50,631 bases of DNA, taken from the NCBI GenBank assembly GCA_021809545.1, contig JAKAYL010000010.1:1-50631 (forward strand), given 5' to 3'. Source of the DNA: Thermoplasmata archaeon (GTDB lineage: Archaea > Thermoplasmatota > Thermoplasmata > Lutacidiplasmatales > UBA184). Below the pieces are notes generated by a model. That model had not been told where the DNA came from, searched no databases, and saw only the letters and a list, made by a program, of their open reading frames with translations. Positions 7,212 to 49,523 of the stretch are shown here, one piece after another. Each line of letters begins with the position of its first letter. The first letter of the stretch is position 1. The translations under genes were made by a program, and so were the position numbers.

Positions 7212-10178
<2,967 letters not shown>

Positions 10179-10213
10179 GACTCACTCTCCGTTATACAGG
10201 AACTGCATGTGAC
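10179..10213 (+). other. 3' arm of 23S rRNA processing stem
   Basis: Complement of 7176-7211; see that entry for the pairing. Downstream, CCCCCGGGGG and CTCCCCCGGG at about 10217-10240 form further GC-rich self-complementary sequence that could help end the transcript. Confidence 0.8.
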
Positions 10214-16602: not shown

Positions 16603-16804
16603 CTGCTCGACAAGATTCCGCTGCCAACGCTGAGTCCTGTCGCTCCTCCCACCTCCCTGAAGGGTCGTGGCATCCAGATACTCCCGCCGCCGGACAGGTG
16701 GTGACAGAGGAAGCCGGGAGAAGGTCGATCTCCCCTTGAGAAACGTCTGAATATCGTAGAATAACGAGCGTGCCTATTTGACCACAATCCGATGTCCGGC
16801 ACCC

Positions 16805-18841
16805 ATGGAAAAGACTGCAGAGTGCAGGTCCGAAGGCCAAGAACCCCGCCAGCCAGTGAGCCGAATATCGCTGAGAACCCCGCTCGCAGCCGTGCGTCGC
16901 GCTCCGAGGAGCGGGGCCCTCTTCCTCGCCCTTTTGATGCTGGTGCCGGCCTTCGCCGGCCTTTCGATGCTCCCGGCGCACGGACCCGCCGCCGTTCACA
17001 CTGGTATCAACCTTGAACCCTCCCTCGCCCAGCGCTCCCCGGTTTTCACCGCCTCCCCGCTCGCCTTCACCCAGCAGATCATCGGGAACGTCACCGACCA
17101 GACCCCGTACGATGTGGCCTACGACTCCCAGAGCGGTAACCTCTACACGGCGGATTATACGGCCAACAATGTGAGCGTCATTAACGGAGCGACGGGTCAG
17201 GTCACCCAGAACATCAGCGTCCTCGCCTACATCTCCGACCCGACCAACGTCCTCTACGATCCGATGAACGGGGACATCTACGTCAGTGGGACTAGTCCCA
17301 ACTTGGCGCACGACAATGTCACCATCATCAGTACCGCGTCCAATACGGTGATTGGGACCGTCGACCTCCTGAACCAGTCGCAATCCTGGGGCATGACCCT
17401 CGACACAACGAACGGGTTCATCTACGTGACCGATTCGCAGTCCTACAACGTCTCTGTGATCGACGGGGCCACGAACACCTTCGTGACCAACATCCGTGTC
17501 ATCGGATTCCCAGAGGCCGCCGCCTACGACAGCGCAAACAACGAAGTGTATGTTACGAACCATTCCGGAACCATCATCATCGACCCGACCACGGAAACGG
17601 TTGTGGGAGGCCTCATTTGGGGTACCAGCTCCTTCAACTACCACGTAACCCAGTTTGTCACGTTCGATCCCAAGAATGGGTATCTCTACGTTACCTCCTC
17701 AGGGTACGACTCCGGCAACCCAAACAACGTCTACTACAGCGACGTGCTGGTCATCAACGGAGCCAACAACAGCTTCGTTACCGAGATCGTGCTCGGGAAC
17801 CAGACGGACCCCTTGGGACTGACGTTTGACCCGACCGACGGGGAGATCTACGTGGCCAATTCGGGCCAAGACAACGTGACCGTGATCAACGGGTCGACCA
17901 ACCAGATCGATGCCCTCGTCTCGCTCGATAACCCGCTGGGCGGACAACCCACAGATGTCGCCTACGACGCGTCGAACCAGAACATCTATGTGGCCAACTG
18001 GATCGACGACAGCGTCGGTATCATCTGCACGCACCCAGCCTGTGCGAGCGGCGCCCAGGTCAACTCGCTGACCGTGAATCCCCCAACCGCTTCGGTACAG
18101 GTGGGAACCACGCTCAGTCTCTCGGCCACCCCCACGTGCTCTGGAGGGTCCTGTTCTAACACCATTACCTACGCCTGGACCCTGAACAACACCCTCGGGC
18201 AACTCAGTTCCTCGTCGGGGCAGTCCGTCACCTTCACGGCGTCTTCCGCCGGTCTTACCGCACTGACGGTGACGGCGACCCTGGGAGCCTCCCACGCCCA
18301 GGCGACCGCCAACCTGACCTTGACGACCTCGGCCGTACCGGGCGTGGTCTCGGTGAGCATCACCCCCTCCTCGCTCTCGGTCGTTCCCAACGGAACCCAG
18401 ACCTTCGGTGCGAGTGCCCAGTGCAGCTCGGGCAGTTGCCCCAGCGGTGGGGTCAGCTTTGTGTGGTCGCTCAACAACACCCTCGGACATCTCAGCTCCT
18501 CGACGGGGCAGAGCGTCACCTTCACGGCGGGACCTCACGACGGAGTAGTGACGCTCACCGTCACCGCCACCCTCTCGGGGACCACCCCGAAGTCGAATCA
18601 CGCTGTCATCACGATCGGTTCCAGCGGTGGAGGAGGGAGCGGCGGGGGCTCGTCCAATGGTTGGCTGCTATGGGTACTCGTCGGAGGCATCGCCGGGGTC
18701 GCCGTGGTAGCGGTTGTGCTCGTCTACCTCCTGAAGATTCGCAAGCCCCGGGCTCCCTTCCAACCCTTCGCCCCTGCGCCGCCGCCGGGTAGCTACCCCC
18801 CACCTCCCTCGACAGCGCCTCCTCCTCCGCCACCCGCCTGA
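16805..18841 (+). CDS. Surface-anchored YVTN beta-propeller protein with Ig-like domains
   Basis: 678 aa cell-surface protein. A basic N-terminus leads to a hydrophobic segment (37-56), a signal sequence or anchor. From about 90 to 420 there are six to seven beta-propeller repeats of the YVTN kind (GEIYVANSGQDNVTVINGSTN). Two Ig-like domains follow, about 430-520 and 520-610, each with a Cys pair and the phrase LNNTLG(Q/H)LSSS. Then come a Gly/Ser linker, a transmembrane helix (about 618-643), basic KIRKPR and a tail ending in PPPPPPA. Sequons are frequent, consistent with AglB-dependent glycosylation. An in-frame TTG at 16778 could extend it by 9 residues; ATG 16805 is preferred. Role unknown; adhesion or envelope structure is likely. 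Confidence 0.8.
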   Translation: MEKTAECRSEGQEPRQPVSRISLRTPLAAVRRAPRSGALFLALLMLVPAFAGLSMLPAHGPAAVHTGINLEPSLAQRSPVFTASPLAFTQQIIGNVTDQTPYDVAYDSQSGNLYTADYTANNVSVINGATGQVTQNISVLAYISDPTNVLYDPMNGDIYVSGTSPNLAHDNVTIISTASNTVIGTVDLLNQSQSWGMTLDTTNGFIYVTDSQSYNVSVIDGATNTFVTNIRVIGFPEAAAYDSANNEVYVTNHSGTIIIDPTTETVVGGLIWGTSSFNYHVTQFVTFDPKNGYLYVTSSGYDSGNPNNVYYSDVLVINGANNSFVTEIVLGNQTDPLGLTFDPTDGEIYVANSGQDNVTVINGSTNQIDALVSLDNPLGGQPTDVAYDASNQNIYVANWIDDSVGIICTHPACASGAQVNSLTVNPPTASVQVGTTLSLSATPTCSGGSCSNTITYAWTLNNTLGQLSSSSGQSVTFTASSAGLTALTVTATLGASHAQATANLTLTTSAVPGVVSVSITPSSLSVVPNGTQTFGASAQCSSGSCPSGGVSFVWSLNNTLGHLSSSTGQSVTFTAGPHDGVVTLTVTATLSGTTPKSNHAVITIGSSGGGGSGGGSSNGWLLWVLVGGIAGVAVVAVVLVYLLKIRKPRAPFQPFAPAPPPGSYPPPPSTAPPPPPPA

Positions 18842-18859
18842 GGAGCGGTATTCGGCAAA

Positions 18860-18897
18860 GGGCCCTTCTCCTACGGTCTGCGATAGGGGAAGGGCCC
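18860..18897 (+). terminator. Strong stem-loop after the propeller gene
   Basis: GGGCCCTTCTCCTA pairs with TAGGGGAAGGGCCC: 14 positions with one G-U pair and a 10-nt loop, starting 18 nt after the stop codon. No T-run follows, so it may stabilise the mRNA 3' end rather than terminate in the bacterial manner. Confidence 0.5.
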
Positions 18898-19187
18898 GGA
18901 CAGGGGCAATGGTAGCGGAGAGCCTGCCCCGTCTATGGTCGAAAGCATCGTCCAAGGCCGGCAAGCCAGGGGAGTAGGTTTTCCGAGAAAACCCGAATAG
19001 TCCGTGCGAAACCTCGCAACGCAGGAGTAGCTCAACTGGCGGCCACCCGCATAAAGTGATTTGGTCAGGTCGCGATAATCGGTCCTGGGAACGGGAAAGC
19101 GCTCCCGAACCTGACAAAAGGCCTGTTAAATCTAGGCGAAGTTTTCAGGGAATTGGCAAAGCCGCGGTGAATACCGCGGAATAAAGA

Positions 19188-19208
19188 CCGACCGTTTAAA
19201 TAGGTCGG
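19188..19208 (+). promoter_or_regulatory. TATA box framed by an inverted repeat
   Basis: CCGACC (19188-19193) and GGTCGG (19203-19208) flank TTTAAATA (19195-19202). The TATA centre is about 28 nt from ATG 19227, so a leaderless start is likely. A protein bound to the repeat would cover the TBP site. The paired CCGCGG hexamers lie just upstream. Confidence 0.55.
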
Positions 19209-19226
19209 ACCGTCTAAAATTTCGCT

Positions 19227-22200
19227 ATGGGAATCGTCGTTGAGAAACAGGATACACTGTCTATTGGCCAGACCCACCTTCGCCCCGGTACCTCGTCGAG
19301 GGGCCTTGGGTTGGTTCTCGTATTGATCCTCGCCGCCGTGATGGTCCTGCCGGTATCCCCCGCGCTGGCATCGGCAACTTCGGGTTCGCTCCTTCAGAGT
19401 GGCATCACGAGCCACGCCGAACAACCGTCGGTGGCTGCGGCATTGACCCACCCCTCGGCCGTGCCCACCTCATCGGGATCTCACGTGGCCAGCCACGTCA
19501 GTTCGTCCAACGTTGCAGGGTTCCACTTCGCCTCGGCCGCCCATCCCCTTCCAACGCTCCCTGTGTCGGTCTTGCCGAACCCTGTGCTCCAGGCTCCCCA
19601 AGAGGTCTCCCCCGCACCCGCCGCCATTCCCACAGGGTCGGGAGAGGTCACGCACACGGCAGGGAGCCAGCAATCCATTGTGAGCGTTTCTGTTTCCCCC
19701 CAGGCAGGGATCGGGAACATCCCACAGGTCTCGCCGCAGCCCCACTCGAACGCCATTGGTTTGGGCCATGCGTGGGAGGGACTGGACTACGGGCAGGGCA
19801 CCTCAGGGAATTGGTATCCTCCGGACGGGGCCATCGCTGTCGGTCCCAACTACGTGGTGCAGGGCGTTAATGTGGAGTTGGCGGTGTGGACCACCAGCGG
19901 AACCTTTGTCACCGAGAACAGTTACCAGTCGATGTTCGGAGGCATCGGAGTGCCGTCCACAGATCATCTCAGCGACCCCCAAATGCTCTACAGCGCCTCG
20001 GACCAGCGCTACTTCATCTCTATCTTGGACGTGACGAAGGGAGAGTTCTTCGTCGGCGTCTCCGCCGGCAACTTCTCCAACGGAGGATGGGTCTTGTCCT
20101 GTGACAATATTCACTGGTACTGCAATTATCCGATCAATGGCGGGATTCCCACCGGGGATTTCCCCGACATGCCCAAGCTCGGGATCAGCGCCAACGTCGT
20201 GACGGTTTCTGCCTCGATCTGCGTCATCTCCACCGATTCCTGCAGTGCTGGTGGGATGATCTGGTCGATCGCCAAGGCAGGCATGCTCACCGACTCCGGC
20301 ACCAGCTGGCAGTGGTGGGGGCCGTTCACTACCTGGGGGCTGTATCTTAACCCCGTGAATTCCCTCAGCAGCACCACCACCCAGTACGTGATCGGGCAAA
20401 CGTCGACCAACCTTCAGGTGGTCTCCATCACCGGCACACCTCCCTCGGCGGTTGAGTCGCTCGCTACCCCCGCTGTGGGTACGTTCGTCAGTCCCGTGAA
20501 CGCCCCTCAGGCCGGGAGCGCGTCCCTTGTCTGTGTCGCATGCATCGCGGACCCGACCCGCGCAATGGATGCCGTCTATGAGAACGGGATGGCCTGGGCT
20601 GTCTTTGACGTGGGTTGCAACAACCCCGTTCAAGACTGTGTGCGGTTCATCGAGTACAACACCAACACTGCGACGGTGGTTCAGGACGGCACCTTCTTCT
20701 CCGGCGCCCTATACGACTATTACCCGGTCCTTACCTTAGACCCGAGCGGGGATATGGCGGTCGAGTTCGCCGCCTCAAATGCGACAGTCTACCCAAGTCT
20801 CGCCGTCGCAGGGGAGTCCTATGATGTCACCGGCACCATCTCGGGCTCGTCTTACTTGGTCCAGGGTCTCTCCTCCGAAACCACAGGACGGTTCGGGGAC
20901 TACTTCGAAGCCGCCCAGGACCCCTTGAACCCGTACAGCCTGTGGGTCGAGGGGGAATACGACGGCAACAATGTGTGGAACACGTGGATCGCCAACGTGG
21001 GTATTTCTCCCGCAGGACCGCTACCGATGAGCTTCACGGCCACGCCGACCACGGTCGATGTGGGTCAGCTGGTCAGTTTCGACCTGTCTTCCTCCTCTAC
21101 CCAGTGTGGTTCCGGCCAAGCGGACTGGTGCACATGGTACGTCTCGGGGTACACACCCACCCCGGACAGTTGCAAACAGCAGGGGCCAATTTACGCTTGG
21201 CAATACTACTGGACCTCCCCCCAAACCGTCTACATTGGGAACACGACCTACATTGACGAGTATAATTCCGGAACCTGCTCCCTTTCGAACTATGTGGGAG
21301 GTACTTTGCAATCGCCGGGACTCACCATTACTGTGGATCCTGCGCTCGTTGTTCCTGCTCCGAACGTGACTCGAAATCCCGCGGACATCGGTCAGTCGAT
21401 CACGTTCACGGCCTCTCCCAGCGGAGGCTCCGGCAGCTACACGACCTATGCGTGGAGCGGTCTCCCGACAGGGTGCCTGCCGGTCAACAGTCCCTCGATC
21501 ACCTGTTCATCGAACTCCACCACCGGTTCGCCCTACACGGTAACGGTGGCGGTGACGGACTCGAACACGAACACGGTGACAAGCTCCGCCCTTTCGGTCA
21601 CCGTGGATCCGGCGCTCGTGGTACCGGCCCCGGGAGCCACCTTGAAGGTACTCGACGCAAATCAGCAGAGCACCACGCTCACAGCCGCACCGACCGGGGG
21701 GTCTACGGTCTATACCACCTATGTGTGGACGGGGCTCCCGACCGGATGCAGCTCGGCCAACAACGCCAACATCTTGTGCAGTCCAACCACCGCGGGGAAC
21801 TACTCGGTGACGGCGACGGTGACCGACTCCAATGGGAACTCGGTGGTGAGCCCCGTGACCACGATCTTGGTAGATCCCACACTCACCATCGGGGGCATCA
21901 CGGGACCGTCCTCAGGGTCGATCGGGACCCCGGTCACCTTCACGACCTCCGGAGGCGCGGGAGGTTCGGGTGCGGGCACTTACTCCTATGCGTGGAGCGG
22001 GCTCCCTACGGGCTGCGCGACCGCGAACTCCGCCACCCTAACTTGCACTCCGGCCGGACCGAACGGACTGTCCAACATCAGCGTGTCGGTAACCGACCTC
22101 AATGGCGAGACCCAAGCGAGCCCCGCGCACCCGTTCCTTGTTGGGAACGCGCTTGCTGTCCCCGTTCCCACGGCTTCCAAGCCCTCGGTGGACGTTAACC

Positions 22201-23429
22201 AGATGGTCGTCTTTACCGCGGCACCGACCGGAGGTTCCGGGACGTACACGACCTATCTCTGGCAAGGTCTTCCCACAGGATGCGCTACCGCGAACCAGGC
22301 GAAGCTGAACTGCACTCCAACGTCCGCGGCGGGCTCACCCTACTCGGTCAACGTCACGGTAACCGATAGCCTCGGGAACGTGTACACGAGCCCCGCGCTC
22401 AGCTATACAGTGTATGCCGATCCCTCGGTGACGGTCCCGACACCCTCGACCTCTTCCGGGAAGGTAGGCCAGGCGGTCACCTTCTCCACTACGGGGAGCG
22501 GCGGATCTGGCGGGCTGACGTACGCGTGGACCCCCTCCGGGGTAGGACTGGGATGCGTGACCTCCACTTCGACGACCGTGACCTGCACTCCAACGTCGGC
22601 AGGAAACTACACGCTGCAGGTCATCTTGACGGACTCCAACGGGATGTCCGTGAACGCGACCTCGGCCAACTTCGCCGTATCGGGTGGCTCCGCGAGCGGT
22701 CCCACGATCTCCGCCTTCACGGCGAATCCCGCCACCCTGGCGCTGGGCGCCTGGACCAACCTGACGGTCACTGCCTCCGGGGGCACCGGCACACTGACGT
22801 ACAACTACAGCGGGCTTCCGGGTGGCTGTGCAAGTGCGGATCTCTCCAAGCTGGCGTGCCACCCCTCGCAGACGGGCACGTTCACGGTCAAGGTGACGGT
22901 CACAGACCAGGCAGGAATGACGGGGACGAAGTCCGTGTCACTCACCGTGAATGCCGCGGGAACTAACCCGCTCGCCATCGCATCCTTCCTGGCGAACCCC
23001 TCGTCGGTGACCCTAGGGTCGTCGACCACTCTCACGGTCTCGACGACCGGCGGGAGCGGAACGCTGAGCTACGCTTATACCGGTTTGCCGGCGGGATGTT
23101 CTAGCGCGGACGTGGCAGCCCTCACGTGCAAGCCGACCGCCGCGGGAACCTTCCACGTGACGGTATACGTGAACGACACGGGAGGAGAACATGTGACCGC
23201 GCAGACGACGCTCACAGCAACCACGGGCAGCGGGTCGTCCGGTACTCAGTCCTCGGACCTGATGTTGGTTCTGCTCCTCGTGGCCCTGGCGGCCGTGGTA
23301 GTGATCGTGGTCGTGGTACTGGCCTCGCGACGCAAGAAGGGACATTCTGGAGCACCCGCTCCGTACGCCCCACCCCCCGCAGCACCAGGCACCCCCCCGA
23401 ACACGGCTCCCCCTCCCCCACCGCAGTGA
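19227..23429 (+). CDS. Giant surface protein with PKD-like repeats and proline-rich tail
   Basis: 1,400 aa. The N-terminal hydrophobic segment is about 27-43, followed by a Ser/Ala/Pro-rich stretch to about 170. Residues 175-600 form a beta-rich domain (GNWYPPDGAIAVGPNYVVQ, DPQMLYSASDQRYFISILD) that may be a propeller; its family is not certain. A divergent Cys-rich domain spans about 600-710, then seven PKD/Ig-like repeats of about 89 residues (711-1332), most with GLPTGC plus a second Cys. A transmembrane helix is at about 1342-1365, then SRRKK and a tail ending in PPPPPQ. Same overall plan as the preceding surface protein. Probably a major envelope or adhesion protein; no enzymatic motif seen. 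Confidence 0.8.
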   Translation: MGIVVEKQDTLSIGQTHLRPGTSSRGLGLVLVLILAAVMVLPVSPALASATSGSLLQSGITSHAEQPSVAAALTHPSAVPTSSGSHVASHVSSSNVAGFHFASAAHPLPTLPVSVLPNPVLQAPQEVSPAPAAIPTGSGEVTHTAGSQQSIVSVSVSPQAGIGNIPQVSPQPHSNAIGLGHAWEGLDYGQGTSGNWYPPDGAIAVGPNYVVQGVNVELAVWTTSGTFVTENSYQSMFGGIGVPSTDHLSDPQMLYSASDQRYFISILDVTKGEFFVGVSAGNFSNGGWVLSCDNIHWYCNYPINGGIPTGDFPDMPKLGISANVVTVSASICVISTDSCSAGGMIWSIAKAGMLTDSGTSWQWWGPFTTWGLYLNPVNSLSSTTTQYVIGQTSTNLQVVSITGTPPSAVESLATPAVGTFVSPVNAPQAGSASLVCVACIADPTRAMDAVYENGMAWAVFDVGCNNPVQDCVRFIEYNTNTATVVQDGTFFSGALYDYYPVLTLDPSGDMAVEFAASNATVYPSLAVAGESYDVTGTISGSSYLVQGLSSETTGRFGDYFEAAQDPLNPYSLWVEGEYDGNNVWNTWIANVGISPAGPLPMSFTATPTTVDVGQLVSFDLSSSSTQCGSGQADWCTWYVSGYTPTPDSCKQQGPIYAWQYYWTSPQTVYIGNTTYIDEYNSGTCSLSNYVGGTLQSPGLTITVDPALVVPAPNVTRNPADIGQSITFTASPSGGSGSYTTYAWSGLPTGCLPVNSPSITCSSNSTTGSPYTVTVAVTDSNTNTVTSSALSVTVDPALVVPAPGATLKVLDANQQSTTLTAAPTGGSTVYTTYVWTGLPTGCSSANNANILCSPTTAGNYSVTATVTDSNGNSVVSPVTTILVDPTLTIGGITGPSSGSIGTPVTFTTSGGAGGSGAGTYSYAWSGLPTGCATANSATLTCTPAGPNGLSNISVSVTDLNGETQASPAHPFLVGNALAVPVPTASKPSVDVNQMVVFTAAPTGGSGTYTTYLWQGLPTGCATANQAKLNCTPTSAAGSPYSVNVTVTDSLGNVYTSPALSYTVYADPSVTVPTPSTSSGKVGQAVTFSTTGSGGSGGLTYAWTPSGVGLGCVTSTSTTVTCTPTSAGNYTLQVILTDSNGMSVNATSANFAVSGGSASGPTISAFTANPATLALGAWTNLTVTASGGTGTLTYNYSGLPGGCASADLSKLACHPSQTGTFTVKVTVTDQAGMTGTKSVSLTVNAAGTNPLAIASFLANPSSVTLGSSTTLTVSTTGGSGTLSYAYTGLPAGCSSADVAALTCKPTAAGTFHVTVYVNDTGGEHVTAQTTLTATTGSGSSGTQSSDLMLVLLLVALAAVVVIVVVVLASRRKKGHSGAPAPYAPPPAAPGTPPNTAPPPPPQ
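21360..23223 (+). repeat. Seven tandem PKD-like repeats (protein level)
   Basis: Units of about 89 codons with recurring signatures: VGQ.VTFT near the start, Y.W.GLPTGC in the middle, L.C.PT.AG after about 10-15 residues, and VTVTDSNG before the end. DNA identity between units is moderate, so the array is old rather than a fresh duplication. The sixth unit lacks the GLPTGC wording but keeps both cysteines. Confidence 0.8.
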
Positions 23430-42132: not shown

Positions 42133-42159
42133 GCCGACGCTTTCTCGGTGGCGGGGAAA

Positions 42160-45100
42160 ATGGACGATAGTCAGCCCGCAGGCTGGTGGCAGCGGCACGC
42201 AACCGCAGCCTTCATTCTCGCCATCGCCGCCGTTACCACGTTCCTCATCCGTACCATCTATGCTTACCAGCTCATCTCCCAGTGCAACATCTCCTACTGT
42301 TTCGCAGGCGGCTCGGATTCTTTCTACCACGCCCGTGTGATGACCTGGATCATCCAGCAGCACACGAATCTGATCAAGGACCCGCTGCTCAACTACCCGC
42401 TCGGCCTGAACAACCCCCGGGAACCCCTCTTTGACTGGATGAACGCTATCCTGGGGATCCTCTTCGCCCCGCTCTTCGGAGGGAACGCCGTTACCGCCGG
42501 GATGTGGTTCCTTGAGATGCAGCCCCCCTTCTGGGCGGCCATGGGCGTCTTCCCGCTCTACTTCCTGGGCAAGGAGGTCAGTTCCAAGCGCACGGGCCTG
42601 ATCGCCGCGGTGCTCTATCCCCTCTTCGTAGGAAGTATCGAGAGCACGGTGGCCACGTATGCGAACTATCTCTCGTTCTATGCCTTCTTCGTCTTCCTCA
42701 ACTTAGCTGTCTACATCCATACCGTCCGCCTCTCCGGCACCCGACGGTGGGTGGAGAACTACATCTCTCCCCGGTCGATCTGGAGCGGGTTCAAGAACTT
42801 CGCACGCGTGGAAAGGAACAGCTTCAACTGGGCGGTGTTCGCGGGAGTCTCATTCGGCGCGACCATGCTCGCCTGGCAGGGGTACACCTACGTCATCGCG
42901 GTCGTGGTCGTCTTCCTCGCCGTCACCCTTCTGGTGGAGCGGATCCGACGGGTCGACTCCTTCGGCACCTACGTCGTGACCTTGATCATGGGGACCATCG
43001 GGTTCCTGATGGCCATGCCCTACTACTACGTCCAGGGGGTCTTCGGCTACTGGTTCGGCCTGCCGATGATGATCTTCTACGGGGCGATGCTCGCCCTGCT
43101 CCCGTTCATGATGCTGAGGGACACGCCGTGGCTCCTCTCCCTCATGGTCATGATCGCATCCATCGCCGGTGCGGCGGGTGGACTTTACCTCTACAACAAG
43201 AACGACTTCAACGCGGTGATCACGGGACAAGGGTACTTCGTGAAGACCCTCATCTACTCCACCGTCGCCGAGGCGCAGGCCCCGAGCTTCGACAGTCTGA
43301 TCGTAGCGTACGGGCCCATCACGTTCTTCCTAGCCATCATCGGCCTGATGGTCTTCATGTTCTACCTCTACAAGTTCAAGTTCCGGCGGGAACACGTCTT
43401 CATGGTCATCCTCGGGCTCGTCGGGATCTACCTCCCCATCTCCGCGGCGAAGTTCTTCCTCATCGGGGCCCCGCTCTTTGCCCTCCTCCCGGCCGAGGTC
43501 ATCCTGATGGCCATGGACCGGATGGGCTACTCCGACATGCGCCACACCGCGACCTCCCTGTCGCAGAACGGCAGCATGTTCTTCGCCTTCAAGCGCTCCT
43601 TCAAGCTGCGCCACCTCTTCATCATCATCATCGCTCTCGGGGTGCTGCTGCCCAATGTCTGGTACGCCGTCGACGCCGGGATCCCCTACAACGAGAAGTC
43701 CACCTACGGAAACCAAATCTACAACACGCTTCCACCGGCCATCCGCTCCACCCTGGGCTCGAGCTCCTACCTGGGGGCCGCGGGCATCGAGACCGACACC
43801 CCGACCCAGTACGACGAGAGCGGGTACAATTGGTTAGCTGCGCAAGATACTAATCAGATTCCTGCCCAACGTCCCGCGTTCGTGAGTTGGTGGGATTACG
43901 GGTTCCAAGCGCTCGATCAAGGGGGCCATCCCACGGTGGCCGACAACTTCCAGGACGGCATCGTACCCTCAGGACACTTCCTCCTGGCCCAGAACGAGTC
44001 CCAAGCCATCGCCGTCATGGCCACCACCCTGCTTTACGCCGAGCAGCAGGTCTCCGGGAAGCCCTACCTCCCCGCGGGTCTCAATGCCCAGCTCCGGGCC
44101 GACGGTCTGAACCTCACCACCCTCCATAACTACATGGTCAACACGTCCAAGGACCAGACCATTGTCATCAACAACCCGCAGATCTACGGGCCGGTCAACG
44201 CCGGCAACCTCCAGGGCACCGGCGGGGCAGAGAACGCGCTGTTCTTCACCATGGACCAGTACCTTGCCAGCGCCCTGAACGAGAACGGGGTCGTCAAGGT
44301 CTACCAAGACGTGCAAAGCTACACCGGCTGGTCCATCGGCTACGCCATGGCGGATACCCGGCTCTTCCCGACCTCGGGATCGAACACGGGGATCTACTAC
44401 GCGCCGGTTGATCTCACCGACGGGGTCATCGGCTCGGGCGGCATTCCCACCTGGTACTTCACGGTCAACGCAACTGGCTCCGACGGCAACACCTACCCGC
44501 TGGGAAGCGTTCCCCCAGGGGTCCAGGTGGTTTCGACCAGCATCAACTATAACAGCCCCTTCTACAACTCGATGATCTACAAGATCTTTGTCGGGTACAA
44601 CGGGACCGACGTTGGCGCCGGGACCGGGATCCCCGGCCTCTCCAACAGCCTCACCTCCTACCCGGTCCAGCCCGGCTGGATGATGCAACACTTCATGATG
44701 CAGTACCGGACAGCGTACTACTGTCCGTACAAGAACTACACCGACCACCCAGGTTGCTTCTCGGCGGTGAACTACGCCCAGGCCCTGCAATACCAGAAGA
44801 ACAAGCAGGGTACGGTGGACGCCTCGAGCAGTTCCTACTTCTCGGGCGGGGAGACTATTCTCCGATACTACCCTGGCGCCACCGTGACGGGGTACGTGGC
44901 CCTCCCCCAGGGGCAACCGATGAAGAACATCCATGTGACCGTCCTCGACCAGTGGGGCACCCCCCACCAAGTGGTGACCACCAACAAGTACGGGGCGTAC
45001 ACCCTCCTTGCTCCCCCTGGGAACGACACCCTGGTCGTCAGCTACGGGGCGGTCGGAGGCCTCCAGCAGACCGGGACGACCCTGGACACCGTGAACCTCA

Positions 45101-48100
45101 CCGTCTCCAACGCCTATGCACTGACGTACAACTCCCCGGCCATCTTCGAGCCCATTACCGTCAAGCCCGCCTCGGTCTCCGGACGCGTCTACTGGAACGT
45201 CGCCAACTCTACGAGCTATTCCCCGGCCGAGGACCTCCCGATCTCTGGGGCCACCGTGACGCTCGAGAACAACAACTCGTTCATCACGAATGTCACGTCG
45301 GACGTCACGGGAACGTACCTGGCGACCGGGCTTCCTCCCGGACTCTACAACGTGAGCGTCTCCCTTGCCCCCGGAAGCTCGTTCTCCACCGGTCAAGTCA
45401 CCCTCTCGAGCGGGGAGAACAAGTCCCAGGACCAAGCGATCAAGGACTCTCACATCATCGGGGTCGTGACCTCGGAACAAGGAGCGCCCGTCGTGGGTGC
45501 CCAGGTGACCCTCACTTCCCCGGGCCAGCCCACGCAGACGCTGACCACAGGGAACACGGGGCGCTTCAACTTCAGCAGTCTCCTCCCGGCACAGTACTCG
45601 GTCCGCGCCGTTACCCAGGCAGGGCTGAACTCCGCCCCCACCGTCGTGGACCTCTTTACCGAGGGTCAGAACACCTCCGTCAGCCTGACGGTGAGCACTC
45701 CCGTCATCACCTCGATCCGGTTCACCTACAACGGTCAACCGATCCCCAACCTGCCCGTGCGGTTCTCCCCCCTCAACGCGGTGGCCAATTTCTCCTCGAT
45801 CGCCATCACCGGGACTGACGGGGTCGCCATAGCGCGGCTTACCCCCGGGATCTGGTCGGTCTACGCCCTCGGCGCCATCAACGGCACCTGGGTGACCTCG
45901 CTCTCCAACTTGGAGATAGGGAACGGTACGCAGACCGTCAGCCAAACCTTCGCTCTTCAATCCGCTCAGGTGCTCCGCGGCACGATCTACGGTCAGGGCA
46001 CCAACCTGCCGCAGAACGGGGTCCAGATGACCCTACGGTCCTCCACCGGGGCCATCCTCGCGGCGGCTACGAACTCGACCGGGCGCTATCAGCTCTATCT
46101 CCCCACCGGGACCTACACGATCCTCGCCAGCTACGCACCCTCGGGAACTACCCCGACCGTCGCTGCCGTGGGAACGGTCGCTCTGGTCACGCCCCGCACC
46201 TTCGACCTCACACTGTCGGCCGCGATGTCCTATGCCCCCCTCGTCGGATACCGGGCCTCCAGCGGCAACTTCATCGCCCTCCCAGGAACCGTCGTGACGG
46301 TGGGGTTCGGTGGGAATTCGCTCCAGTCCATCACGAATGCCTCGGGTTATGCCAGTTTCATCCTTCCCCAGGTGAACTCCACCTTCACCGTCTCCGCGTA
46401 CCACTACGGGTACAACCTCACCCAACCGCTCACCCTTCCGAACCAGCAGGCGCTGCTCAGCGCCGTCAAGATATCCATGGGAGCGGTGCCGGTCGAGGTC
46501 ACCCTGGATCTCGTCTGTTCCGGCTGCACGTCCGCACCCACGGTCAACTTCACCGCGGTCGCACCCCCGGCCAACAGCACGTCTGTGACCGCACAGTACC
46601 AAAACGGGTCCTATGTCGTCCACGCGGCCCTCTCCCCCGGACCCTACACCATCAGCTCGGAGACCATGGTCCTCGGAAACCGTTGGTCTCAGATCGGAAC
46701 GGTCTCTACCTACGTGCCGGTCGGAGCGGGACCGATCACCCTCCCCTCGCTCACCCTGATGCTGCAGAAGCCCTACAACGGCTCGATCGGCCTCCCTCCG
46801 TCGACCAATTCGACCGTGGCGGCGGATGCCAAGGTCCTGCTCTACTCGCCCACGGCCGGCAACATCACCCTTAGCGGAGAGAACTTTACGAACGCTTCCT
46901 CGCCCTTCTATGCACCTCCGGGGAATTACACGGCCTGGATCGTCTCCTTCAACGGGAGCACCCCCTATTCCTTCCTCGGAAACCTCTCCTTCCCGACCCA
47001 GGGGGGAGCACTTCCCACCGTCCAGTTGCACCCGGCGAGCAACTTCACCTTCGTCTTCACCTCCTCCTACGGGAAGACCCAGAACGCCAAGGTCAACGTG
47101 ACGCTGAGCTCCGCGAGCGCCTCTTCGAACGGAGCGCTCATCCACTTCGCCTCCACCTCCTCGGGATCCGTGGGACTCACCCTGCCGAACGGGACCTACC
47201 GGATCTCCGTCAATTCCACCGCACTCCTCAACGTCTCGGGGATCTCCCACTTCGTCACCTTCCGGACCGAACCCAATCCCAACTACTGCACCCTCAACCT
47301 CACCTCGAGCGTCTGCAACATCGATCTCAACACCACCAGCGCCCTGACGAACCTCAACGGGGTGGCCTACCTCGGTTCGCAGGTCTCGGGCGCCAATGGC
47401 CTCGTTAGGATCCTCCCCGCCGGTGGGAACGCTTCCCAGGAGATCGTCCTTCCCCTGGTCCAGGGCCGCTTCTCGACCGCCCTCCTCCCGGGAGACTACA
47501 CCCTCTACACGAGCGAAGACGTCGGGGGCTACGCGGAGGTCAACGTCACGACCGTTGCCCTCTCCTACCAGAGCACGGGATTGAACCTGCGGCTGAACCT
47601 GTCAACGGGATGGCAGGCCTCACTCTTGCTCTCGACCCCGCCGAGCCTCCCCACCGTTTCCACCGCCGTGCTCAACGTCTCCCAGGATGGGAACACGCTC
47701 TTCTACGTCACGGGAATCTCCCCGAACAGCGCGTACACTCTCTCCCTCCCCGCCGGGACCTGGACCCTCTCGGTCCGTGCGTCGACCACGATGGGAGGAG
47801 TGACTGTGCCTCTCCTCGCCAACGCCAGCGTCCCGCTTCACCAGTCCAACGCGGCAGTGAATCTGCCGCTCTTGCCTCAGTGGACCCACACCGCCACCCT
47901 TTCCGTCACAGGTGTGACCACAACCACCATCGCTGGCGGAGGGAACGCGACCTTCTCCTTCGTCGTCAAGAACACGGGGAACAGTGTGGAGACGCTCCGC
48001 TTCAAGGGAGCCCCCGTCACGTGGAACTACACCTTCTACCCAGCCAATGTGACCCTCCAGCCAGGACCGACCGGCAGTTCGGCGAGCGTCAGTGTCAACG

Positions 48101-48717
48101 TCCAGGTCCCGAGGAACACGCTGGTCACCAGCAACTCGGCGACCTTTGAGGCCCTGCTCAACGGAACGGCCGCTCCTCTTGCTTCGGCGAGTGTCACCAT
48201 CAACCTCATTCCCCGCCATGCGATCACGCTGCTCTCGACCCCCTCCTCGGACATTGTCGGCAACAAGTCCCTGGTCCTCGGATACAGCATGGGCGCGTCC
48301 GGGAATGCCATTGAGAACGTTACCGTATCCGTCCTCAACGGTGCGAGCCTCAACCAGCAGGGATGGTCCTATTCCCTCACGGGCACCTTCACCTCGCTGA
48401 CCCCCCAGAACCCCGCCACGATCGGCACCCTCACGCTCTCCGCACGGATCGCCGGGGCAGTCTTGCCCCACACCGTCACCCTCCTCGCAGTGGACCACGC
48501 CGCTCCCGGGCTGACCCAGACCCTCACGATCCAACTCCCGACGGCCAACCTGACCGTGCCCGGGCCTCTCCTCGTGACGGGACCGAGCATCGGTTCACCC
48601 GCCCCGTTCTACATGACCTATCTCCCGATCGTCCTGACCATCGCTCCGGCGATAGCGATCGTGGCCTTTGCCGTGGGCCGACGCTGGTGGAAGACCCGGC
48701 GGTGGGTGCGCAAGTGA
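42160..48717 (+). CDS. aglB: Giant AglB/STT3 oligosaccharyltransferase with extended extracellular region
   Basis: 2,185 aa; transfers lipid-linked glycan to Asn in N-x-S/T sequons outside the membrane. Residues 1-500 hold about 12-13 membrane helices; an acidic metal motif is in GGSDSFYHARVM, a second acidic region in REPLFDWMNAILG. The catalytic signature WWDYG is at 577-581, followed by the mixed globular domain to about 900. Beyond that lie about 1,200 extra residues: four to five carboxypeptidase-regulatory-like beta domains (about 905-1390), further beta-rich sequence, a NEW3-like domain near 1925-2030 and a final membrane helix (about 2150-2175) ending WWKTRRWVRK. Usual AglB proteins have 600-1,000 residues. 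The extension is full of sequons, so the enzyme may glycosylate itself. GTG 42148 is an alternative start. Confidence 0.93.
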   Translation: MDDSQPAGWWQRHATAAFILAIAAVTTFLIRTIYAYQLISQCNISYCFAGGSDSFYHARVMTWIIQQHTNLIKDPLLNYPLGLNNPREPLFDWMNAILGILFAPLFGGNAVTAGMWFLEMQPPFWAAMGVFPLYFLGKEVSSKRTGLIAAVLYPLFVGSIESTVATYANYLSFYAFFVFLNLAVYIHTVRLSGTRRWVENYISPRSIWSGFKNFARVERNSFNWAVFAGVSFGATMLAWQGYTYVIAVVVVFLAVTLLVERIRRVDSFGTYVVTLIMGTIGFLMAMPYYYVQGVFGYWFGLPMMIFYGAMLALLPFMMLRDTPWLLSLMVMIASIAGAAGGLYLYNKNDFNAVITGQGYFVKTLIYSTVAEAQAPSFDSLIVAYGPITFFLAIIGLMVFMFYLYKFKFRREHVFMVILGLVGIYLPISAAKFFLIGAPLFALLPAEVILMAMDRMGYSDMRHTATSLSQNGSMFFAFKRSFKLRHLFIIIIALGVLLPNVWYAVDAGIPYNEKSTYGNQIYNTLPPAIRSTLGSSSYLGAAGIETDTPTQYDESGYNWLAAQDTNQIPAQRPAFVSWWDYGFQALDQGGHPTVADNFQDGIVPSGHFLLAQNESQAIAVMATTLLYAEQQVSGKPYLPAGLNAQLRADGLNLTTLHNYMVNTSKDQTIVINNPQIYGPVNAGNLQGTGGAENALFFTMDQYLASALNENGVVKVYQDVQSYTGWSIGYAMADTRLFPTSGSNTGIYYAPVDLTDGVIGSGGIPTWYFTVNATGSDGNTYPLGSVPPGVQVVSTSINYNSPFYNSMIYKIFVGYNGTDVGAGTGIPGLSNSLTSYPVQPGWMMQHFMMQYRTAYYCPYKNYTDHPGCFSAVNYAQALQYQKNKQGTVDASSSSYFSGGETILRYYPGATVTGYVALPQGQPMKNIHVTVLDQWGTPHQVVTTNKYGAYTLLAPPGNDTLVVSYGAVGGLQQTGTTLDTVNLTVSNAYALTYNSPAIFEPITVKPASVSGRVYWNVANSTSYSPAEDLPISGATVTLENNNSFITNVTSDVTGTYLATGLPPGLYNVSVSLAPGSSFSTGQVTLSSGENKSQDQAIKDSHIIGVVTSEQGAPVVGAQVTLTSPGQPTQTLTTGNTGRFNFSSLLPAQYSVRAVTQAGLNSAPTVVDLFTEGQNTSVSLTVSTPVITSIRFTYNGQPIPNLPVRFSPLNAVANFSSIAITGTDGVAIARLTPGIWSVYALGAINGTWVTSLSNLEIGNGTQTVSQTFALQSAQVLRGTIYGQGTNLPQNGVQMTLRSSTGAILAAATNSTGRYQLYLPTGTYTILASYAPSGTTPTVAAVGTVALVTPRTFDLTLSAAMSYAPLVGYRASSGNFIALPGTVVTVGFGGNSLQSITNASGYASFILPQVNSTFTVSAYHYGYNLTQPLTLPNQQALLSAVKISMGAVPVEVTLDLVCSGCTSAPTVNFTAVAPPANSTSVTAQYQNGSYVVHAALSPGPYTISSETMVLGNRWSQIGTVSTYVPVGAGPITLPSLTLMLQKPYNGSIGLPPSTNSTVAADAKVLLYSPTAGNITLSGENFTNASSPFYAPPGNYTAWIVSFNGSTPYSFLGNLSFPTQGGALPTVQLHPASNFTFVFTSSYGKTQNAKVNVTLSSASASSNGALIHFASTSSGSVGLTLPNGTYRISVNSTALLNVSGISHFVTFRTEPNPNYCTLNLTSSVCNIDLNTTSALTNLNGVAYLGSQVSGANGLVRILPAGGNASQEIVLPLVQGRFSTALLPGDYTLYTSEDVGGYAEVNVTTVALSYQSTGLNLRLNLSTGWQASLLLSTPPSLPTVSTAVLNVSQDGNTLFYVTGISPNSAYTLSLPAGTWTLSVRASTTMGGVTVPLLANASVPLHQSNAAVNLPLLPQWTHTATLSVTGVTTTTIAGGGNATFSFVVKNTGNSVETLRFKGAPVTWNYTFYPANVTLQPGPTGSSASVSVNVQVPRNTLVTSNSATFEALLNGTAAPLASASVTINLIPRHAITLLSTPSSDIVGNKSLVLGYSMGASGNAIENVTVSVLNGASLNQQGWSYSLTGTFTSLTPQNPATIGTLTLSARIAGAVLPHTVTLLAVDHAAPGLTQTLTIQLPTANLTVPGPLLVTGPSIGSPAPFYMTYLPIVLTIAPAIAIVAFAVGRRWWKTRRWVRK

Positions 48718-49523
48718 GGAGCAGCCGGATACTCCAGTTCATCATCTGCCTGGGTTTGCTAGCCACCCTGCTCCCGCTGGCCGGGGCCGCCGCCCCGCAC
48801 CCCGCGGCCTCCTATCCTCCGGTCAAGGCCACCCTCACCGGACCTTCGGTGCTGGCAGTCTCCGCCACGGGCTCCTACGTGCTCAAGGCGTCCGGGGGAC
48901 CGGCCCAGCTCCTCGACGGCTCGTTCGTGGGGAACTACACCTACAATGCCTCCCTCATCGGTGCCAACACGACCGGTGGTAGCGTCTCCCCCGCGTCGGG
49001 AAGCCTCACCAACGAGAGCACGACCCTGAAGGTCACCGCCCCCAACAACACCGGGACCTACACGCTCTCCGTGAACGTCACGAGCACCTTTAGGGGCAAT
49101 TCCACCTCGACGTCGACCGGCTTCACCTTCACGGCGGTCGTCCCCTACGTGGTCTCCGCAAGCCTCGTCAACCACAACAGCTACACGATCAAAGGCGCCT
49201 TGGTCCAGGTCAATCTGGACGGGACGCAGGTCGCGGTCGTGACCCTTCCCTCGATCCAGGCCAACGGGTCCTACAACTTCGTCTACAACTACACCACCAC
49301 CGGGCTTTCCCCGGGGGATCACACCTTCACCCTCACGCTCCAGGGGCCCTACGGTCTCCTGCAGTTCAGCCAGGGCGGCAACTCCATCTCCAGCAGCTTC
49401 TATGTGACTCCGCCTCCTGTCGACTATACGCTCTACTACGTGACGGGAATCTCCCTCGTGGGCTTGGCCATCTTTATATCACTCTTGATTGTGGGTGGAC
49501 GGAAGAGGAAGAAATCGAAATGA
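48714..49523 (+). CDS. Secreted membrane-anchored beta protein coupled to aglB
   Basis: 269 aa. The signal peptide is clear (about 1-25, ILQFIICLGLLATLLPLAGAAA). The mature part is Ser/Thr/Asn-rich with Ig-like beta strands and about ten sequons (NYT, NAS, NTT, NES, NNT, NVT, NST, NGS). A single C-terminal helix (about 240-262) is followed by GGRKRKKSK. GTG 48714 overlaps the aglB stop as GTGA, so the two are co-translated. Possibly an accessory subunit or dedicated substrate of this AglB; no family recognised. Confidence 0.78.
   Translation: MRSSRILQFIICLGLLATLLPLAGAAAPHPAASYPPVKATLTGPSVLAVSATGSYVLKASGGPAQLLDGSFVGNYTYNASLIGANTTGGSVSPASGSLTNESTTLKVTAPNNTGTYTLSVNVTSTFRGNSTSTSTGFTFTAVVPYVVSASLVNHNSYTIKGALVQVNLDGTQVAVVTLPSIQANGSYNFVYNYTTTGLSPGDHTFTLTLQGPYGLLQFSQGGNSISSSFYVTPPPVDYTLYYVTGISLVGLAIFISLLIVGGRKRKKSK

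Follow-up and report, generated by a model that had tools for sequence, protein, structure and literature searches.

The two genes considered here, P1 and P2, lie on the forward strand of contig JAKAYL010000010.1 from a Thermoplasmata archaeon (GTDB lineage Lutacidiplasmatales; UBA184; assembly GCA_021809545.1), and encode predicted surface proteins that end in a membrane helix followed by a proline-rich tail. The window, i.e. the whole stretch of DNA that was analysed, comprises 50,631 nucleotides with a G+C content of 65%, and is one of the contigs of a 1.96 Mb genome that is 98.98% complete. Sampled genomes of the archaeal family have a G+C content of 64-70%, and the listed genome sizes in this family range from 1.3 to 3.6 Mb; passages of PMC9287336 give about 69% G+C and about 2.1 Mb for the Lutacidiplasmatales. 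The coordinates of the features are presented in Table 1.

Table 1. Features of P1 and P2, followed by other features of the window.
Feature	Position	Strand	Basis
P1, secreted YVTN/NHL beta-propeller protein with PKD-like part, type I anchored	16778..18841 (ATG at 16805)	+	ORF, domain searches
P1 N-terminal signal-like hydrophobic segment	16916..16972	+	hydropathy
P1 C-terminal membrane helix (predicted)	18668..18724	+	hydropathy
P1 tail, 38 aa, 45% Pro, ends PPPPPPA	18725..18838	+	composition count from helix end
P2, secreted N-domain with PKD/Ig repeats, type I anchored	19227..23429	+	ORF, domain searches
P2 N-terminal signal-like hydrophobic segment	19311..19367	+	hydropathy
P2 N-domain query stretch (428 residues)	19716..21000	+	matches at E ≤ 1e-15 in 29/103 family genomes
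P2 C-terminal membrane helix (predicted)	23265..23321	+	hydropathy
P2 tail, 35 aa, 37% Pro, ends PPPPPQ	23322..23426	+	composition count from helix end
Archaeal 23S rRNA	7213-10180	+	Rfam
2189-residue protein, STT3/AglB-like part, then carboxypeptidase-regulatory-like and SdrD-B-like domains, last helix near C-terminus	42148-48717	+	
Single-anchor surface protein, 278 aa, ends in short basic stub GRKRKKSK, without Pro-rich tail	48687-49523	+	

Judged by hydropathy, P1 and P2 are both built like type I single-pass surface proteins: a signal-like helix lies near the N-terminus, a large ectodomain follows, and there is one C-terminal helix. As claimed in the first-pass annotation of this DNA, the single predicted helix is followed in each protein by a basic patch and a polyproline tail, which reads YLLKIRKPRAPF...PPPPPPA in P1 and ASRRKKGHSG...PPPPPQ in P2. 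The statement that the extracellular parts differ was likewise borne out, since P1 carries a YVTN/NHL propeller and P2 an N-domain without Pfam match together with PKD/Ig repeats. Five NCBIfam models match P1 at E ≤ 0.001 and none match P2, the PKD match in P1 is just under its cut-off, and the P2 N-domain gave no match in the PDB at E ≤ 1. No CTERM sorting model (archaeosortase/PGF-CTERM) of NCBIfam matched P1 or P2 at E ≤ 0.001, in a search where short models can be missed.

The helix-basic-polyproline ending is widespread in the source genome. A query consisting of the P2 helix and tail found 43 places at E ≤ 10; among the 30 that were read, P1 and P2 included, 28 are anchored with a basic patch according to a rule-based assignment, and 20 have a Pro-rich tail, defined as containing at least 15% proline (Pro). 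The exceptions are L059, which fails the anchor rule, and L049, which was set aside by hand as pilin-like: it lacks an anchored tail, has its helix at the N-terminus and resembles, by eye, a type IV pilin-like protein of archaea. Because this query picks similar tails by design, a tail-blind sample was taken, comprised of 20 stretches of 20 kb and the window (approximately 450 kb) and containing 317 genes, 37 of them with a single C-terminal anchor. The positions of the stretches, as in a later sample from relatives, were chosen blind to the tails but fall mostly on contigs already holding a search match. Genes were called with an in-house codon-score finder and helices according to Kyte-Doolittle; some of the small "anchored" proteins are doubtful, and composition statistics are given for tails of at least 15 aa.

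The 34 anchored tails of the source genome sample contain 17.5% Pro, compared with 7.0% for their own ectodomains, 5.8% for soluble proteins, 6.4% for the last 40 residues of soluble proteins and 7.1% for the C-terminal tails of multipass proteins (22 tails). Eighteen of the 34 are Pro-rich, and PPP runs occur at 11.8 per 1000 aa in the tails, 0.48 in the ectodomains and 0.44 in soluble proteins. The difference persists for disordered-like segments, with 22.1% Pro in tails, 7.8% in ectodomains, 12.2% in soluble proteins and 12.5% in multipass proteins. For the 27 anchored proteins of at least 300 aa, whose median tail length is 39 aa, the Pro content of the tails exceeds that of disordered-like segments of soluble proteins (P = 2e-4, one-sided Mann-Whitney) and, by the same test, that of the final 40 residues of soluble proteins (P = 2e-8). 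Both the search and the tail-blind sample thus revealed other proteins with this ending in number and, whatever the tail does, the ending provides a simple anatomical mark of many surface proteins in this uncultured lineage. A polyproline codon pattern with a nearby stop codon matched 36 times in the source genome and 26 times for the reversed control.

Some tails carry other elements. Paired CxxC motifs are found in three of the 27 source genome tails; for L158 and L160, whose tails have Cys pairs, Pfam gave no zinc ribbon at E ≤ 0.001, the label of zinc ribbon being derived solely from the Cys pattern. The surface protein at L153:10063-15351 (minus strand) possesses a cytosolic tail that resembles, by eye, a winged-helix domain and not a Pro-rich segment; Pfam gave no winged-helix match there at E ≤ 0.001.

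The distribution of charges and sequons indicates on which side of the membrane the tails are likely to reside. In the 27 source genome proteins of at least 300 aa, the 15 residues following the helix contain a mean of 4.2 lysine or arginine residues, versus 0.33 in the 15 residues preceding it, and the excess is found after the helix in 26 of the 27 proteins (8 of 9 in another genus), in line with the positive-inside rule. N-x-S/T sequons occur per 100 aa at 2.47 in ectodomains, 0.16 in tails and 0.22 in soluble proteins of the source genome, and at 2.64, 0.39 and 0.15, respectively, in the other genus. Such a contrast is expected if the ectodomains meet the glycosylation machinery and the tails do not. 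Based on the basic residues after the helix and on the sequon contrast, the tails look cytosolic rather than extracellular, as the first-pass annotation had assumed; this is a prediction and not a topology mapping.

Similar endings were found among relatives. At E ≤ 0.01 the P2 helix and tail query matched 24 of 25 genomes within the family and 7 of 16 outside it, with scores that may come partly from the helix, which is included in the query, and the basic patch. In the later sample, taken from five genomes of another genus, the tails contain 14.6% Pro (n = 15, seven of them Pro-rich), compared with 7.1% for soluble proteins and 10.9% for multipass tails; for disordered-like segments (nine proteins) the values are 25.1% for tails, 12.4% for ectodomains, 11.5% for soluble proteins and 17.2% for multipass proteins. 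The Pro enrichment in this genus has therefore the same direction, with a smaller contrast. The sample from G006 and G021 gave 14.5% Pro with one of three tails Pro-rich, and the sampled relatives pooled together have 13 Pro-rich tails out of 34; outside the family, one tail of at least 15 aa was caught, which is without Pro.

Homologues of both ectodomains were also fetched. The P2-like set of 47 places, comprised of 46 of the 47 N-domain matches other than P2 (minus a fragment in G110) and one place from a separate search, includes 37 anchored proteins, five that run off the contig and five without helix; 30 of the 37 have a Pro-rich tail of at least 15 aa, and four have a tail shorter than 15 aa. 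Four P2 N-domain relatives (L339, L340, L341 and L343) end right after the domain with no predicted anchor, so that the domain also occurs alone. The P1-like set of 53 places was taken from at least about 150 matches, mostly top-ranked with some skipped, and includes 43 anchored proteins (23 of them with Pro-rich tails), eight that run off the contig and two without helix. Related ectodomains hence keep the Pro-rich tail often, though not always, and acidic or charged tails occur instead; the tails of L309 and L327 exceed 300 aa. The computation supports the anatomy, the cytosol-like tail, and a Pro content above that of other regions of the same genome, including disordered-like ones. It is tentatively proposed that P1 and P2 belong to a family-wide class of surface proteins with type I, single-pass anchoring, whose cytosolic tail is disordered and rich in Pro.

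Several other features of the window were inspected. The 2189-residue protein, which adjoins the 278-aa surface protein, matches archaeo_STT3 (NCBIfam) over residues 23-626 with an E value of 1.1e-50, yet under the cut-off, and has a WWDYG motif around residue 581. Beside the 23S rRNA, no 16S rRNA was found in the window at the Rfam gathering score. The neighbouring aIF5B has, among the 80 matches kept, its best match in Thermoplasmata archaeon WH2.bin25 (42% identity); three Micrarchaeota come next (36-41%), and most of the 80 loci are distant bacterial factors. On its own this best match does not place the source archaeon. Among the ORFs listed for the 14.7-kb locus L061 of WH2.bin25, the two that have a helix at most 150 residues from their end lack a Pro-rich tail.

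As to the role of the tail, we narrowly favour a docking arm, to which we assign a probability of roughly 0.37, followed closely by a passive spacer and then by a translational pause; one tail could serve several of these roles. As a docking arm, the tail would stand out from the membrane in an extended form, similar to a polyproline helix, and its contacts with an inner partner would be weak and multivalent; alternatively it may carry a small terminal module such as a paired CxxC or a W-x-E ending. Unrelated ectodomains could thereby be handled alike on the inside. A more far-reaching version, in which dozens of unrelated surface proteins are tagged with interchangeable Pro-rich cytosolic tails, all bound by a single, as yet unrecognised polyproline reader of archaea, is considered unlikely; if true, this one reader would imply a family-wide cell-surface docking system analogous to the eukaryotic SH3/EVH1 networks. 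Should the tails be read at all, these archaea would possess a proline-based surface-to-cytosol docking code and, to our knowledge, such codes are known mainly from eukaryotes.

A passive spacer or anchor is a serious competitor, itself well short of an even chance. In this view the disordered tail that follows the stop-transfer patch would be inert, with Pro, Ser and Ala keeping it in solution; it would have no dedicated reader, and its composition would be kept while its sequence drifts. This view does not readily account for the arrangement of the prolines. Pro runs number 85 in 52 Pro-rich tails, a set that includes some close orthologues, versus 54.9 +/- 5.5 in shuffles of the same tails, and tail Pro is higher than in other disordered-like regions. 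In 22 of the 55 tails with PPP, the last PPP run lies at most three residues from the C-terminus (the mean of token shuffles is 15.0, and 49 of 2000 shuffles attain this count), and in a smaller, overlapping first set this applies to 16 of 41 tails (mean 10.9, reached by 100 of 2000). These terminal runs, with nothing behind them, count for docking because a plain spacer would not need a Pro run at the C-terminus. Other observations weigh against a docking arm, and several of them are favourable to the spacer. The enrichment is milder in G003/G004 (11.5% Pro, 3 of 9 tails rich) and G009 (10.4%, 2 of 6), and absent from the single tail of G007 (5.9%, 0 of 1). A Pro-rich tail is lacking in 20 of the 43 P1-like and 7 of the 37 P2-like anchored proteins, the P1-like tails varying in length between 5 and 336 aa and in character between Pro-rich and acidic, and in those tails that end in a paired CxxC, Pro is a plausible linker. 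Sixteen orthologue pairs were compared, of which five are close (four G006-G011 and one G001-G002; one of the five has a short tail of 7% Pro). When pooled as codon-weighted means of rounded per-pair values, the tails of the close pairs have a dN of 0.039, a dS of 0.226 and a dN/dS of 0.17 (367 codons), and the ectodomains have 0.034, 0.113 and 0.30 (4673 codons; raised by one pair). The dN/dS of the tails is well under 1, but it is low through their doubled dS, and tail dN is higher than ectodomain dN in four of the five close pairs; among the 11 more distant pairs it is higher in nine, equal in one and lower in one, and the tails carry indels. Tails thus seem not to drift freely, yet to be held no tighter than the ectodomains, which weakens the argument from constraint, lowering our confidence in the docking arm and raising that in the spacer.

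The search for a common motif and for a reader also weighs on the docking arm. W-x-E was the top of 507 gapped pairs in 129 tails and the fourth of 271 in source genome tails, and W-x-E[GSTA] is found in 14 of the 129 tails (shuffle mean 1.35) and in 6 of 55 source genome tails (mean 0.69). Eight of these 14 tails belong to P2-like homologues and one (L144) is doubtful, so the enrichment stems partly from shared descent; as a general motif, W-x-E[GSTA] was rejected, none of the 20 anchored tails sampled later containing it. A P-x-W-D-E DNA pattern, with 258 matches in 61 genomes, was rarer than its reversed control (434), and none of the 27 places read (30 loci) sits behind a predicted helix. 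In six P2-like proteins of one genus (L354, L357, L358, L360, L363 and L366) the short tails end in or near WDE[GST] after prolines, and stretches akin to this occur in the source genome proteins L143 and L054. The tails share a composition and not one motif. Of the common inner partner suggested by the first-pass annotation, what stands is the setting, with cytosol-like tails and a widespread ending; a partner was not found. The check it proposed for SH3, WW, EVH1 or GYF domains returned no matches. For SH3_1, none was found in the source genome, the only one searched besides the controls, where 1 of 14 control genomes (Bacillus subtilis) matched, below the curated cut-off; WW, GYF and EVH1 were each matched in 0 of 21 genomes, and as the controls gave no match either, absence is not established. 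MIT was found in none of 13 family genomes and in two of eight others, including the control Sulfolobus acidocaldarius. That no reader was found counts in favour of the spacer.

A further, rather unlikely explanation is a translational pause, in which the ribosome would be slowed at the polyproline run as the last helix emerges from the exit tunnel, so that the helix can insert into the membrane before translation terminates. Such a role is proposed in PMC5811046, which reports that in non-membrane regions of E. coli polyproline is enriched at a distance of 49-59 residues from the start of the helix (P = 0.035). In 21 of 55 tails the longest PPP run starts 25-45 residues past the helix, against a null of 12.9 +/- 2.9 (15 of 2000 attain this count); in the smaller, overlapping first set this applies to 15 of 41 (null 10.2 +/- 2.6). 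However, this bin was picked after the tails were read, any PPP run at 25-45 occurs in 25 of 55 tails, equal to the null of 24.9, and with a median tail length of 39 residues the distance from the helix is coupled to that from the C-terminus, the two not being separated; moreover, PPP is absent from 26 of 81 Pro-rich tails. The positional support for a pause is weak, but if tails do act in this way, they would serve as a natural experiment on how polyproline times membrane insertion in archaea. Finally, Pro codons being CCN, the high G+C content of the family favours Pro and thereby also weighs against a docking arm. A mere composition artefact is nonetheless highly improbable and largely refuted by the within-genome controls, because soluble proteins, ectodomains and multipass tails of the source genome contain only 6-7% Pro; in addition, G026, an order-level relative whose sample group has a pooled G+C content of 43%, contributed four anchored P1-like tails, two of which are Pro-rich.

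Cytosolic tails rich in Pro are in themselves nothing new. In eukaryotic type I surface proteins, Pro-rich cytoplasmic tails bind SH3, WW and EVH1 proteins, and P1 and P2 resemble them in the secreted ectodomain, the one helix, the basic stop-transfer patch and the Pro-rich tail predicted to be cytosolic; in contrast, the present proteins are archaeal, no reader domain was found, and a composition rather than a defined ligand motif is shared. Archaea have a known reader of a proline-rich peptide, the MIT domain of the archaeal Vps4/CdvB system, which reads the MIM2 peptide; a Pro-containing peptide is common to both systems, but the family genomes are without MIT (0 of 13). Archaeosortase substrates (PGF-CTERM) are archaeal surface proteins that likewise have a C-terminal helix and basic residues, whereas in the present proteins the helix is followed by a tail (median 39 aa in the source genome sample), and P1 and P2 match no CTERM model. 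On a lineage-wide set of Pro-rich tails on archaeal surface proteins no paper was found, judging from titles and the beginnings of abstracts. With the polyproline motifs described in PMC5811046, the tails have in common that Pro runs come after a membrane helix; here, one structural class carries these runs in its C-terminal tails, and often at the very end of the protein.

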